Positions 6,951 to 29,970 of a stretch of DNA of 64,000 nucleotides are shown here, piece after piece. Location of the stretch: positions 2,852,001 through 2,916,000 of the forward strand of contig NZ_CP038026.1 of the NCBI RefSeq assembly GCF_004421005.1, read 5' to 3'. The number at the start of each line of letters is the position of its first letter. Within the stretch, counting starts at the first letter, position 1. Both the position numbers and the translations under genes were made by a program. The notes under the pieces are model-generated. The model was not told the DNA's origin and searched no databases. It saw only the letters and a list, made by a program, of their open reading frames with translations. The stretch is from Pseudoduganella plicata. GTDB taxonomy: Bacteria > Pseudomonadota > Gammaproteobacteria > Burkholderiales > Burkholderiaceae_D.

Positions 6951-7258
6951 GAGCGCCGGCCTTCTACAAGCGCTACAGCCGCAAAATAATTTGCCAGAAC
7001 GTCCAAGTTTCGATTGACTTTTTGATGTGCCTCAAACGACGGGCGTTATCGTGTAAGCAAGCGCTAACATCGATTTTAACGGTTGGGTACGGCTGCTGAA
7101 ACGGCAGGCAGACGCAGACCGGGACGTTGAACTTATGACAAACTTATAGGCCGGACACTACCACGCTGTGCGGCGCGGACCGGCATTATAGACGATGGCA
7201 GCCGCGGCCGTGATGGGGCCTGCCCCGCCTGCGCAGGGCATTCGCAGGCCTGCCGGAT

Positions 7259-8674
7259 TCATTCCTTGATATTGAGTTTCTGCATCTGGTAACGCAACTG
7301 CCGAAAACTGATCCCCAGCAGCTGGGCGGCCTGGGTGCGGTTGTATTGCGTCTGCGCCAGCGCCCGCACGATGATTTCTCGCTCCACGCGCTCCAGGTAT
7401 TCCGGCAGGTTGGCCGGCAGCACCGTCAGGTCGGGCAGCGGCGGCAGATCCGCCGGCAGCGGTTCGGCAGCAGGCGCAGGCGGCGAGGCAACCACGGGAT
7501 CGGCGCGGACGGGGGCCTCGGCCACCTTCGCCCCCTTCAGCGCCAGGTCCTCGACGTGGATCACGCCGTCGTTGGCAAACGCCAGCGCCCGTTCCAGCAC
7601 GTTTTCCAGTTCGCGCACATTGCCGGGAAAGCTGTAGCCGCGCAGCGCGTCCAGCACGCCCGGCCCCAGCGTGGCCCGGGGCCCGGTACCGGACAGGCGC
7701 GCCAGGATCGCTTCCGTCAGCACCGGCAGATCGTCCAGCCGCTCGCGCAGCGGTGGCAGTGCCAGTTCGATCACGTTCAGGCGGTAAAACAGGTCCTGCC
7801 GGAACCTGCCCTGCTCCACGCAGCGGGCCAGATCCTGGTGCGTGGCGCTGACGATGCGCACGTCGACGGGCTCCTCGGCCGTGGCGCCGATCTTGCGCAC
7901 CCGCCGCTCCTGGATGGCGCGCAGCAGTTTGACCTGCATGGCCAGCGGCAGGTCCGCCACTTCGTCCAGCATCAGCGTGCCGCCGTGCGCTGCCTGGAAG
8001 AAGCCGTCGCGCTCATCCGCGGCGCCCGTGAAGGCGCCCTTGCGGTAGCCAAAGAACTCGGCCTCCATCAGCGCTTCGGGAATGGCCCCGCAGTTGACGG
8101 CAATGAACGGCCTGTCGGCGCGCGAGCCTTGCGCATGGATTTCGCGTGCGGCCAGTTCCTTGCCACTGCCCGATTCGCCCGTGATCGCGATCGGCGCCAT
8201 CGAGCGGGCCAGCCGGGCAATCTGCGCTCGCAGCGCCTGCATGGCCGCCGACTGTCCCTTCAGGCGGCTGTCCACGGCGTCGCCGCGCGGTACCGGCGTC
8301 GGGCCGTTCAGCTGCAGCGCCGACAGCACGAGCTGGCGCAGCTGGTCCAGCTGCACCGGTTTGCTGACATAGTCGAACGCGCCTGCCTTCAGCGCGACCA
8401 CGGCATTGTCCGCACTGCCGAACGCGGTGACGACGGCGATCGGCGTGTTCCTGCCGCTGGCGGCGATTTCCCGCACCAGCTCCAGCCCGAGCCCGTCGGG
8501 CAGGCGCATGTCCGTCAGTACGAGGCCATATTCGGCGCCGCCGCCCAGGCAGGCCCGCGCCGTGCGCAGGTCGGCCGCGCTGTCCACGTCGAGTCCCATC
8601 TTCAGCAGCGTGATCTCCAGCAGCTCGCGCAGATCGTCTTCGTCGTCGACCACCAGAACTTTCGGAGCACTCAT
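7259..8674 (-). CDS. pilR: PilR-type sigma-54 response regulator
   Basis: This is an NtrC-class activator of 471 residues. The receiver domain (about 5-120) has the acidic pocket D10/D11 and phospho-acceptor D55 in LTDMRLPDG. The AAA+ domain (about 143-370) has the P-loop GESGSGKE and the sigma-54 contact loop GAFTGA. A Pro/Ala-rich linker leads to a Fis-type helix-turn-helix at the C-terminus. It sits 45 bases downstream of a membrane histidine kinase on the same strand, and the pair matches PilS-PilR, which activate pilin transcription through RpoN. No pil structural gene is in the window, so the target is inferred from the family and neighbours. Confidence 0.85.
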   Translation of the reverse strand: MSAPKVLVVDDEDDLRELLEITLLKMGLDVDSAADLRTARACLGGGAEYGLVLTDMRLPDGLGLELVREIAASGRNTPIAVVTAFGSADNAVVALKAGAFDYVSKPVQLDQLRQLVLSALQLNGPTPVPRGDAVDSRLKGQSAAMQALRAQIARLARSMAPIAITGESGSGKELAAREIHAQGSRADRPFIAVNCGAIPEALMEAEFFGYRKGAFTGAADERDGFFQAAHGGTLMLDEVADLPLAMQVKLLRAIQERRVRKIGATAEEPVDVRIVSATHQDLARCVEQGRFRQDLFYRLNVIELALPPLRERLDDLPVLTEAILARLSGTGPRATLGPGVLDALRGYSFPGNVRELENVLERALAFANDGVIHVEDLALKGAKVAEAPVRADPVVASPPAPAAEPLPADLPPLPDLTVLPANLPEYLERVEREIIVRALAQTQYNRTQAAQLLGISFRQLRYQMQKLNIKE

Positions 8675-26812: not shown

Positions 26813-26943
26813 TCAACCTGCTGCGCCACCACGCCGCGCGCCGCCACGGCACCGTGTGCTACACGGTCATGCACAGCATCGTGCGTGGCGAGTGGCCGGA
26901 ATTGCGCGCGCGGCTCGACGACCTGCTGACCCGGGAGCGATGA
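26809..26943 (+). CDS. 44-residue ORF between the MoxR and VWA genes
   Basis: The ATG at 26809 overlaps the MoxR stop (ATGA), and its own TGA at 26941-26943 overlaps the first ATG of the VWA gene (ATGATG). The product reads MINLLRHHAARRHGTVCYTV, then MHSIVRGEWPELRARLDDLL and TRER: soluble, basic, one Cys, no recognised domain. The exact coupling at both ends argues that it is translated, or at least that ribosomes run through. It may be a small subunit or only a translational bridge. Confidence 0.5.
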   Translation: MINLLRHHAARRHGTVCYTVMHSIVRGEWPELRARLDDLLTRER

Positions 26944-28112
26944 TGCTGATCGATTTTTTCTTTACGCTCAAAGACGCGAAAATCCCTGTCACCATCAAGG
27001 AGTTCCTGACCTTGCTGGAAGCGATGCGGCAGAACGTCATCGACCAGTCGCTGGACGATTTCTACTATCTCGCGCGCCTGACGCTGGTGAAGGACGAGGC
27101 CCACTTCGACAAGTTCGACCGCGCCTTTGCCCAATACTTCAAGGGCATCAACGGCGCGTTCGAGACGGGCAGCGCGATCCCGCTCGACTGGCTGGTCAAG
27201 CGGATGGAGCGCGAGCTGACGGACGAGCAGAAGGCCGCGCTGGAGAAATTCGGCTACGACAAGCTGATGGACCGCCTGCAGGAACTGCTGAAGGAACAGA
27301 AGGAACGCCACGAAGGCGGCAGCAAATGGATCGGCACGGGCGGCACGTCGCCGTTCGGCAATGGCGGCACCAATCCGGAAGGCGTGCGCATCGGCGGCAA
27401 GGGCGGCAACCGCACGGCCGTCAAGGTGTGGGACCAGCGCAGCTACAAGGACTACGATTCGGACCGCGAGCTGGGCACGCGCAACATCAAGGTGGCCCTG
27501 CGGCGGCTGCGCCGCTTTGCCCGCGAAGGCGCCGCCGAGGAACTGGCGCTGGACCAGACCATCCGCGCCACGGCCAACAACGCCGGCTGGCTCGATATCA
27601 AGATGCAGCCGGAGCGGCGCAACAACGTCAAGGTGCTGATGCTGTTCGACGTGGGCGGCACGATGGACGACCATATCGAGCGCACGGAAGAACTGTTCTC
27701 GGCGGCGAAGTCGGAATTCAAGAACATGGAGTTCTATTACTTCCACAACTGCGTCTACGACTATCTGTGGAAGAACAACCGCCGCCGCAACGCCGAACGC
27801 TTCCCGACCTGGGACGTGCTGCGCAAGTACAAGCCGGATACAAAACTGGTGTTTGTCGGCGATGCCACGATGAGTCCTTACGAGATCCTGCACCCGGGCG
27901 GCTCCGTCGAGTACAACAACGAGGAAGCGGGCGCCGAATGGCTGGCGCGCTTCACGCACGCGTTCCCGAAATTCGTCTGGCTCAATCCGGAACCGGAAGG
28001 CCTGTGGCAGTACCGCCAGTCGATCGCCGTCATCCGCCAGCTGATGAACAACCGCATGTTTCCGATCACGCTCGCCGGGCTGGAAGGGGCGATGCGCACG
28101 CTCTCCAAATAA
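26940..28112 (+). CDS. CoxE-like VWA domain protein
   Basis: This 390-residue soluble protein has a C-terminal von Willebrand A domain (COG3552 type) and a helical N-terminal region (MLIDFFFTLKDAKIPVTIKEFL). The metal-ion site, normally DxSxS, reads DVGGTMD here, so it may bind metal weakly. A Gly-rich segment (WIGTGGTSPFGNGGTNPEG) lies near residue 130. The partner ATPase is two genes upstream. Two neighbouring ATGs (26940, 26943) are possible starts. Confidence 0.88.
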   Translation: MMLIDFFFTLKDAKIPVTIKEFLTLLEAMRQNVIDQSLDDFYYLARLTLVKDEAHFDKFDRAFAQYFKGINGAFETGSAIPLDWLVKRMERELTDEQKAALEKFGYDKLMDRLQELLKEQKERHEGGSKWIGTGGTSPFGNGGTNPEGVRIGGKGGNRTAVKVWDQRSYKDYDSDRELGTRNIKVALRRLRRFAREGAAEELALDQTIRATANNAGWLDIKMQPERRNNVKVLMLFDVGGTMDDHIERTEELFSAAKSEFKNMEFYYFHNCVYDYLWKNNRRRNAERFPTWDVLRKYKPDTKLVFVGDATMSPYEILHPGGSVEYNNEEAGAEWLARFTHAFPKFVWLNPEPEGLWQYRQSIAVIRQLMNNRMFPITLAGLEGAMRTLSK

Positions 28113-28149
28113 GCCGCGGCCAGAACGGGTGCCCGGAACCGGAAAACGG

Positions 28150-28188
28150 GAGCCTGTCACCGGTTTCTTGAAAACCGGTGACAGGCTC
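28150..28188. repeat. Inverted repeat, GAGCCTGTCACCGGTTT type (copy 2)
   Basis: Perfect 17-base arms (28150-28166 and 28172-28188) are identical to copy 1 at 11528-11568. CTGTTTTTTT follows directly, so on the plus strand it can work as the terminator of the moxR-VWA unit. Confidence 0.9.
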
Positions 28189-28289
28189 CTGTTTTTTTAC
28201 TGTCGCTATACGCGCACGCCGCCGTTCTTTACGCCCTTGTTACGGCGAAATCGCTATCGTGAAACTGTCTCCACTACCGATAGCGAACC

Positions 28290-28547
28290 ATGCAAACACT
28301 TACCGTCATGCCGCCGTCGACGCGGCTCATGCTGATCACCGTCGATACCGACCGCGTCATCGAACTGCGCCGCCTGGTTGCGCGGGCCTGCGGCAACCGC
28401 CTGTTGTTCATGCGCATGCAGCCGATCGAGCATGCCACGCGCATGCAGGTCTGGCTGCGCGTGACGGAACCGGGCGTCCAGCGCATCGTCGATGCGGTTA
28501 CGCGCAGCCTCCCTTCCGCGCAACTGGGCCGCGTGGTGGCGCCATGA
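28290..28547 (+). CDS. Small ACT-like protein, unknown function
   Basis: The 85 residues alternate strand-helix-strand-strand-helix in an ACT-like manner (RLMLITVDTD, VIELRRLVARACG, LLFMRMQPIE, ATRMQVWLRV, VQRIVDAVTRSL). No catalytic motif is visible. No good ribosome site precedes the ATG; a second ATG at 28308 is possible. Its TGA overlaps the ATG of the following ParA-like gene, so the two are translated together and probably act together. I recall similar small genes ahead of small ParA-like ATPases in Oxalobacteraceae, which is memory and not a search. Confidence 0.6.
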   Translation: MQTLTVMPPSTRLMLITVDTDRVIELRRLVARACGNRLLFMRMQPIEHATRMQVWLRVTEPGVQRIVDAVTRSLPSAQLGRVVAP

Positions 28548-29080
28548 TCGTCACCGTCGTCAACGAAGGCGTCGGCGTCGCCAAGCCGGCATTGGCCGAA
28601 CACCTCGCCGCGTTGCGCGGCCTGGCCGGGCGCAAGGTGCTGCTGATGGACGCCGATTCCCATCCGCATCCGAGCCACTGCGGCAAGGCGGCTTTGCCGA
28701 TCGCGGCGCGTGCCGTGTGCGGCAAGGGCGTGCAGGCCGAACTGGAAAACCTCGGCCAGCGCTTCCAGGACATCGTTGTCGATGCCGACGGCCGCGATTC
28801 GCTGGGCAGCCGCGCCGCCCTGATCGCGGCGAAAGTGGTGGTGATCCCTGCCGACGACCTGCATGGCGACCCGGCACGCGCTGTCAGGCTGGCCGAGCGG
28901 ATCGGCAATGCACTACTGTTCAATCCTGGCCTGCGCATCGTCATCGTGCCTTGCCACGGCTGGAGCGGCGGCAGCTGTCACGGCGCAGCGTGCGTCACCA
29001 CGTTACTGCAACAGCGCCTGGCGGGCGCCGAGCTGGCCGGACAGCCAGGCTCGTTGTACGCCACCGTCTTCGGCAATTAG
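28544..29080 (+). CDS. ParA/MinD-like protein with degenerate P-loop
   Basis: This 178-residue protein keeps the ParA scaffold: MIVTVVNE at the start, KVLLMDAD (second strand), and DIVVDADGRDSLGSR and AAKVVVIPADD as in Walker B and the following strand. The P-loop, KGGVGKST in active relatives, reads GVGVAKPA (residues 9-16). The signature lysine and the GK[ST]T core are lost, and only K14 remains. ATP hydrolysis is therefore doubtful. It may be a nucleotide-binding or dimerising scaffold, or a decaying gene with an intact frame. It is coupled to the small ACT-like gene upstream. Confidence 0.75.
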   Translation: MIVTVVNEGVGVAKPALAEHLAALRGLAGRKVLLMDADSHPHPSHCGKAALPIAARAVCGKGVQAELENLGQRFQDIVVDADGRDSLGSRAALIAAKVVVIPADDLHGDPARAVRLAERIGNALLFNPGLRIVIVPCHGWSGGSCHGAACVTTLLQQRLAGAELAGQPGSLYATVFGN

Positions 29081-29122
29081 CCGCACCCCGCGGCGGCACG
29101 TGCCGTGCCGCCGCCTCGCGCA

Positions 29123-29881
29123 TCAGAACACCTTCGACACCGTCAGCACCAGCGCATCCTTGCCCGTGAACTTGCCATTGACAGGCGAGGCGTACGCGCT
29201 CGCGCCGGCGTTGGTGGCGATCCACGCCAGCGCCACCGAAGCGACGCCAAAGTCCTTCGTCACACCCACCTTCCAGTCCGTATAGTCGGCCGCGTCGTGC
29301 TGCTTCACCTTCTGGCGACCGGCGTGCAGCGTCACGACCACGCCGCCGATCTCGCGGTTGAACGACAGATCGAGATAGCCGCTATGCCGGCTGTCGGTGA
29401 AACCGAACAGATTGGTCGCGGCATGGGAATACTTCAGCGTCCATGGCCCGGCGCCCAGCTGGCCATACAGCTCCAGGGTGTTGGCATCCGGGTGCAGGCG
29501 GTTGGAGGGGTAGACGTAGCCCAGCAGACCGGCGTCATACGAGATGGCGCTGCCGCCCAGGTTGCCGAGGGTGCCGCGTTTGCCGGCATACAGGTCCCAC
29601 TCGCTGCCGCCATCGCCGCCGGCATCCCTCGTCCACCTGATCGTCGACAGCCAGGCGCCCGCGTAAAAGCCGGTACCGGCATCGACCCAGTCCGCGCCGC
29701 CCTGCAGCGCCGGCTTCAGACGGGTCTGCGAGATGCCGCGGAAACGGTAGTCGGACGTCACGGCCACGTTGTAGGTCAGCGTGGAAGCGGGCGTGGGCGT
29801 GCTCTCCTGAGCCTTGGCGCCGGCGGCGAATACGGATGCAAATGCGAAGGCAAAGGGAATGCCTGAAAACAGACGTTTCAT
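29123..29881 (-). CDS. TorF-type putative porin
   Basis: This 252-residue outer membrane protein has a signal peptide ending near AGAKAQ, then LTYNVAVTSDYRFRGISQTRLKPALQ, the opening typical of TorF/TIGR02001 proteins. Alternating beta strands follow to the C-terminal VF. The family is predicted to form a 12- to 16-stranded barrel; its solute is unknown. It lies 89 bases behind kdpE on the same strand and could be read from the kdp promoter, so a role in outer-membrane potassium or ion passage is possible but not shown. Confidence 0.85.
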   Translation of the reverse strand: MKRLFSGIPFAFAFASVFAAGAKAQESTPTPASTLTYNVAVTSDYRFRGISQTRLKPALQGGADWVDAGTGFYAGAWLSTIRWTRDAGGDGGSEWDLYAGKRGTLGNLGGSAISYDAGLLGYVYPSNRLHPDANTLELYGQLGAGPWTLKYSHAATNLFGFTDSRHSGYLDLSFNREIGGVVVTLHAGRQKVKQHDAADYTDWKVGVTKDFGVASVALAWIATNAGASAYASPVNGKFTGKDALVLTVSKVF

Positions 29882-29970
29882 GATGTTCTTTCAATGTGCA
29901 AGGACGAACGGGGCCTTTGCCGTCACTGGCGTGGCGGCGCAGCTGGCCGGGTGCTGCGAATAAGAGGTTG

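Follow-up and report, generated by a model that had tools for sequence, protein, structure and literature searches.

The locus and its surroundings

The window analysed here, a whole stretch of 64,000 nucleotides, comes from Pseudoduganella plicata, whose genus NCBI places in Oxalobacteraceae. At 28290-29080 it contains two overlapping genes, referred to below as the small gene and the ParA-like gene. The features in and around this pair are the following:

26940-28112: VWA gene, upstream of the pair
28146-28192, plus strand: strong, terminator-like hairpin with a T-run after it, separating the VWA gene from the pair (from folding)
28252-28285: inverted repeat CGCTATCG-N18-CGATAGCG, directly 5' of the first start codon (from the upstream alignment)
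28290-28547, plus strand: small ferredoxin-like (ACT/PII-like) protein, 85 aa (from the frame list, AlphaFold fold and homologues)
28544-28547, plus strand: ATGA stop-start overlap of the small-gene and ParA frames (from the sequence letters)
28544-29080, plus strand: ParA/ParF-fold protein with a lost P-loop, 178 aa (from profile matches and fold)
28568-28591, plus strand: P-loop remnant, residues 9-16, GVGVAKPA (from alignment with outgroup ParAs)
28769-28798, plus strand: residues 76-85, DIVVDADGRD, which we take to be a Walker-B-like strand with GRD (from conservation)
29123-29881, opposite strand: TorF-type porin gene, downstream of the pair

Coordinates and letters agree with the two ATGA-overlapping frames and the 178-codon open frame given in the initial annotation. 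A codon-usage gene caller also picked both frames on the plus strand, preferring start 28329 for the small gene. The neighbours on the two sides of the ParA-like gene are a VWA/MoxR pair, the small gene, TorF and Kdp genes. Past TorF come, presumably, kdpE, kdpD, kdpC, kdpB, kdpA and parE in this order; these names, like that of TorF, are presumed family assignments.

None of the genes flanking the window pair was identified as a ParB-type partner. Of the two DHDPS-family genes in this genome, neither lies in the window, and the nearer one is about 129 kb from the pair. Neither window protein matched a PADLOC defence family, and 28000-29900 has no Rfam match at gathering level.

In terms of transcription, positions 28135-28200 have a predicted folding energy of -45.4 kcal/mol (z -10.1). 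With this hairpin upstream and TorF on the other strand downstream, 28290-28547 and 28544-29080 look like their own transcription unit. Scanning 28100-29130 for sigma-70 promoters gave no match. In the upstream alignment the left arm GCTATCGTG of the 28252-28285 repeat is kept in 8 of 8 clade species and the right-arm core CGATAGC is exact in four of the eight; this repeat could be an operator or a hairpin.

The hairpin at 28146-28192 contains GGAGCCTGTCACCGGTTT, a copy of a dispersed palindrome. This 18-base half-site has 115 forward and 118 reverse genome matches with at most two mismatches (233 in total), against 0 forward and 1 reverse for its reversed control in the same genome, and is therefore a dispersed repeat. 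Many of the exact copies listed are arranged as facing half-sites.

The two proteins

The kinship of the 178-aa protein with ParA is weak by sequence and strong by fold. Its match to Pfam AAA_31 reaches 20.2 bits (cut-off 27) and that to NCBIfam NF041546 ParA_partition 42.3 bits, below the equivalog cut-off of 180, as are the scores of its relatives (122.7 for the GKT-bearing L066 and 154.8 for the plasmid protein L181). PHROG 164, a ParA-like group, matches at E 6e-5. The AlphaFold model (pLDDT 88.9, pTM 0.87) has as its best solved-structure match ParF, 4e03_A, at Z 17.8 and rmsd 2.6 over 169 aligned residues; MipZ, Soj and MinD structures also score above Z 15. Together with the alignment to the KGGVGKTT columns, the ParF match bears out the ParA-like label first given to this protein.

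The fold from end to end, the size class and a D-I-hh-D ... GRDS core are shared with ParF (TP228 ParA) and the small plasmid ParAs of NF041546. Canonical NF041546 members read KGGVGKT or similar, whereas the window protein has no recognisable P-loop. Its residues 9-16, GVGVAKPA, align column for column with KGGVGKTT of the outgroup ParAs, and depart from KGGxxK[ST] with just one glycine and K14 in place. The initial annotation, which counts the GK[ST]T core as lost, needs one correction. Missing are the signature lysine, replaced by G9, a pair of glycines, and the Ser/Thr, where P15 and A16 now stand; the Walker lysine in GK[ST] survives as K14.

Both K14 and A13 are invariant in 7/7 members of the window clade (defined below), as are D36, D38, D80, R84 and D85, while D76 is invariant in all 37 aligned members. 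We take D36 and D38 to be the Walker A prime and D80 the Walker B aspartates. To judge from the invariance of K14, D36, D38 and D80 in the clade, it is as if the pocket still held something. Since the Ser/Thr for Mg2+, two glycines and the signature lysine are missing, the protein probably does not hydrolyse ATP.

ParA-family proteins with altered loops are already known, and include named NCBIfam variant families. McdA of S. elongatus (SGGQGKT) and BcsQ (RGGVGTT) are described as having an altered, deviant Walker A (PMC9178275 and PMC6328274). McdA has strong ATPase activity despite its loop, and both proteins are still counted among ParA-family ATPases (PMC9178275), so that an altered loop alone need not end function. 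These two keep more of the loop, whereas the window protein also lacks two glycines and the Ser/Thr. The NCBIfam families NF040564 (SCO2523 family) and NF047398 (AAA_KGGVGR) are ParA-superfamily families with variant P-loops; they gave weak hits to the relative L162 and/or the plasmid protein L181, and no match to the window protein at E up to 1. We found no description of the small gene/ParA unit, or of serial loop loss, in the open-licence literature.

As for the 85-aa protein, AlphaFold predicts with pLDDT 90.8 a beta-alpha-beta-beta-alpha-beta fold (E11-19, H20-37, E38-46, E51-59, H62-73, E78-83). Its structure matches include SbtB (6n4a_C, Z 11.1, rmsd 1.6, 73 aligned), which heads the list, and TM1266 (2nzc_D, Z 10.7); less than 1 Z unit apart, the two count as a tie. 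IlvN is present in the Foldseek list. Sequence identity to the 6n4a_C and 2nzc_D chains is 8-10%. Searches with the small protein gave no Pfam family at E up to 1, no NCBIfam match and one chance-level PHROGs hit (E 0.57), and a 49-row profile found nothing among solved-structure sequences at E up to 10.

The small ferredoxin-like fold is common to PII-like proteins (SbtB, CPII) and to ACT domains (TM1266, IlvN). A long T-loop is a feature of PII proteins, whereas the 85-aa protein has a short beta2-beta3 loop at that place; the fold shared with both groups comes with no match to a curated sequence family. The description "ACT-like" appears fair as a label for the predicted fold, and "PII-like" seems to fit equally well.

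Loop states, selection and partner loss among relatives

Homologues of the small gene were found in 42 of 74 same-genus genomes (in 4 as a distant paralogue only) and in 132 of 392 same-family genomes, covering 14 of 44 genera. Relatives of the ParA-like protein (E up to 1e-30) are present in 113 of the 392 genomes and 10 of the 44 genera. The distant paralogue, of 99 aa, is encoded at a different conserved locus; the four species that have it lack the main copy (L107:7880-8179, L108:7099-7398, L109:7726-8025 and L110:7087-7386).

We read the P-loop in 63 in-family sequences, four of them of the PARB type described below, from loci fetched out of the 113 matching genomes. GK[ST] stands at the aligned place in 14 of the 63 and the Walker lysine in 37. 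Only L162a (KEGVGKST) has the signature lysine and GK[ST] together; L074 has a lysine at the first loop place and no GK[ST].

A tree of 67 tips was built without the loop columns, and 18 of its tips carry GK[ST]. The equal-cost reading gives seven changes, four losses and three regains, and barring regain gives 11 losses. The exact number of losses is soft, because several inner nodes have support of 50-70, and some losses may not be final, given the three regains of the equal-cost reading. On these alignments, P-loop loss recurs in a chromosomal ParA family of what is probably Oxalobacteraceae.

In the window clade (support 89), the degenerate ParA-like gene is carried by seven species of the same genus (G000, G020, G065, G066, G068, G074 and G076); the clade is sister to the proteins of genus g30 (support 100), whose loops read GGMEKS, GGMDKS or GRMEKS and keep K and S. 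The initial annotation named close homologues with an intact P-loop, together with neutral evolution of this copy, as a refutation. Homologues reading GG[SA]GKT are found at about 37-45% identity; the nearest relatives, however, have the degenerate loop in common with the window protein. In other genera, longer ParA-like proteins (L165, L166, L167, L168 and L171) form a clade of their own, with DDSTKRS, DESAKRS, DEFAKRS or DESSKRS at this place (omega 0.212, single-start).

Among plasmid records, the match listed first is named "AAA family ATPase" and carries EKGGTGKTT; at 42% identity over 78% of the query, it would suit descent of the window protein from a plasmid partition protein. A phage origin has little support: five phage records match, all below 60% identity and none covering 80%.

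Codon models fitted on the tree give the ParA-like gene of the window clade an omega of 0.177 (2dlnL 233.8 against omega 1). The branch leading to the window copy has 0.096 (2dlnL 3.67 against one ratio). Loop codons 7-22 do not differ from the rest (0.149 against 0.180, 2dlnL 0.62), and fitted alone they have omega 0.128, with neutrality rejected (2dlnL 28.7). Tree-wide values were preferred over pairwise ones, since pairwise dS often exceeds 1 and 2 of 21 pairs did not converge. In simulations, with six runs each, a true omega of 1 was returned as 0.88-1.27 and a true 0.177 as 0.15-0.21, which shows that the estimator is sound at the divergence of this clade.

By segment, in single-start fits, residues 9-20 have omega 0.195 and residues 56-100 have 0.070; residues 138-160 are nearly free (0.823) and residues 41-55 loose (0.464). 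The G066 branch is raised, at 0.377 (2dlnL 6.59, single-start). These values count against the role favoured below. Same-clade controls are the small gene (0.107), TorF (0.121) and MoxR (0.034), and GKT-bearing ParAs elsewhere in the genus have 0.116 on 7 rows and 0.125 on 9 rows. Single-start fits show constraint in further groups whose loops are altered or lost: PARB 0.140, NPGSAKD 0.039, g30 0.186 and g43/g36 0.151, along with the DDSTKRS group above.

Fits from several starts agree for the window-clade omega, the window-branch test, the loop partition and four control groups, the GKT control among them with 7 of its 9 rows. Single-start values are those of the segments, of all branch tests but that of the window branch, and of the groups PARB, NPGSAKD, g30, g43/g36, DDSTKRS and the rest-of-genus ACT gene.

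Judged by these models, the degenerate ParA-like gene is not decaying in the window clade, where decay is rejected (omega 0.177 against 1). The early decay stage that the initial annotation had offered as one reading finds no support, and the neutral evolution of this copy that it named as a refutation is not seen (0.177 for the clade, 0.096 on the window branch). Its two-gene unit with a lost P-loop is upheld as one that is maintained.

The small gene and the ParA-like gene are not an obligate pair. G003 keeps the small gene, and its ParA is an N-terminal stub that runs into a deletion; with the gene lost there, ParA is dispensable in part of the clade. Conversely, G068 and G076 keep ParA while the small gene is cut to 27 and 24 codons, with the ATGA overlap at the ParA start retained and no small-gene match in either genome. 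In G068, the 27-codon leader begins and ends like the full gene of G003 (MATMTDTVP and GRMVKS), which makes it an in-frame internal deletion.

Because ParA is retained without the folded product of its partner, the ATGA coupling probably has no less to do with expression level than with forming a complex. Furthermore, the upstream block TCT[TA]TAC plus GCTATCGTG is common to all eight aligned species, including those that lack one partner, which argues that expression coupling is preserved and not only a fixed complex of small protein and ParA.

Two fusions were seen. At L105:5642-6541 (plus strand), in a fragmented genome of 330 contigs, the small protein and ParA share one 299-aa open frame, an apparent natural fusion with the loop AGDGGKS. 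The other, at L079:6456-6872, is of a deletion type.

Gene neighbours were counted at 79 small-gene loci out of 88 examined, nine having no small gene; the loci were hand-chosen, some genomes enter twice and some contigs end nearby, so the numbers that follow are counts and not rates. A ParA-type gene lies within 4 kb of the small gene in 52/79 (PARB counted as ParA), a DapA-type lyase in 45/79, and both in 31/79. TorF is found within 5 kb in 51/79 and a Kdp gene within 9 kb in 50/79.

The lyase of L076 matches Pfam DHDPS (PF00701), and the other lyases were grouped with it by similarity. Those whose sequences were printed carry GTTGEA, YN[VI]PARTG-like and KEAGG-like stretches, presumably the catalytic motifs of the lyase. 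Where g30, g57 and g53 loci have all three genes, the order is small gene, DapA, ParA, and other g30 and g53 loci have no ParA hit. In the window clade, DapA is within 4 kb in 0/6 small-gene loci.

Genus g1 has many loci, beyond those of the window clade, where ParA accompanies the small gene and another ParA without a P-loop, PARB, lies next to DapA. In L076 this gene (6995-7549, plus strand; similar in other same-genus loci) overlaps the DapA-type gene by 4 bases, has no Pfam match, and lacks the P-loop altogether (MIVALTGMDGN...); its omega above is over 9 sequences.

Lastly, in six same-genus loci parE is separated from the pair, or from ParA, by a gene for a protein of about 274-303 aa: L085 (4665-5489, plus strand), L068, L070, L105, L117 and L118. 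The L085 protein has a weak C-terminal receiver-domain match (E 1.6e-4), below the cut-off.

Possible role of the ParA-like protein

We favour, with some reserve, the reading that 28544-29080 encodes a ParA/ParF fold without a working P-loop, kept by selection as a pseudo-ATPase-like partner-binder. Such a protein would act by binding protein, DNA or both, without an ATP-driven dimer cycle. Its ancestor may have been a partition ParA of the plasmid type which, once on the chromosome, became part of a unit with a DapA-type lyase and a small regulator of the ACT/PII-like kind. In the window clade, with no lyase gene beside the pair, the ATGA-coupled pair would be what is left.

The main rival is a cryptic nucleotide binder, in which K14 and the putative Walker A prime and B aspartates bind ATP, ADP or a phosphate ligand through a non-canonical loop and the protein is still a switch. 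It gains from the invariance of K14, D36, D38 and D80 in 7/7 clade members, from the K and S kept by the g30 sister group (GGMEKS, GGMDKS, GRMEKS), and from McdA (SGGQGKT) and BcsQ (RGGVGTT), which are listed as variants of the family (PMC9178275). We consider it unlikely, though a serious candidate, as the Mg2+ Ser/Thr is P, L or D within the clade, the glycines are unconserved, and elsewhere in the family the lysine is replaced by R, A, V, Q or D (K in 37/63). That the gene is instead a relic drifting slowly to loss is what the ParA stub of G003, the truncated, in-frame-deleted copies elsewhere in the genus (L078, L079, L080 and L101), small genes without a full ParA (for example at L076, L077 and L082-L084) and the raised G066 branch (0.377) would lead one to expect. 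This is very improbable: omega following the loss is 0.177, and 0.096 on the window branch, the loop codons are under the same constraint as the other codons, and the frames are open in seven species; GKT-keeping ParAs are just somewhat tighter (0.116 on 7 rows, 0.125 on 9).

The small protein might also sense a ligand and, in a fixed complex, control its ParA-like partner; alternatively, a full ParA might be poisoned by the ParA-like protein. The ATGA overlap, the 299-aa single frame of L105 and the ParA-type gene within 4 kb in 52/79 hand-chosen small-gene loci (PARB counted) agree with this. We hold it to be improbable, however, as each partner persists alone within the same clade, and in all eight fetched loci of g39, g47, g48 and g40 the small gene has DapA within 4 kb and no hit to ParA; from these loci, DapA may be the primary partner of the small gene. 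Ligand control by the ACT-like partner, suggested in the initial annotation, is weakened as an obligate mechanism by G068 and G076, which keep ParA with a short leader, and by G003, with its small gene and ParA stub. Most likely such control is not required for the partner-binding role that we favour.

At the level of the family, we put forward more tentatively, and as a possibility short of even, that it was turned into pseudo-ATPases by repeated P-loop loss followed by purifying selection, many of them in or near a metabolic unit made up of a DapA-type lyase and a regulator of the ACT/PII-like kind. Their job would then have nothing to do with ATP-driven positioning. The current view of ParA/MinD proteins is that of dimers switched by ATP. 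If the switch was indeed lost repeatedly under selection, the ParA fold can work without it, and there would be a whole family of ParA-fold pseudoenzymes. The loop series KEGVGKST, GGAGKT, GGMEKS, GVGVAKPA and DDSTKRS would then offer natural variants for finding which step ends ATP binding, dimerisation and function.
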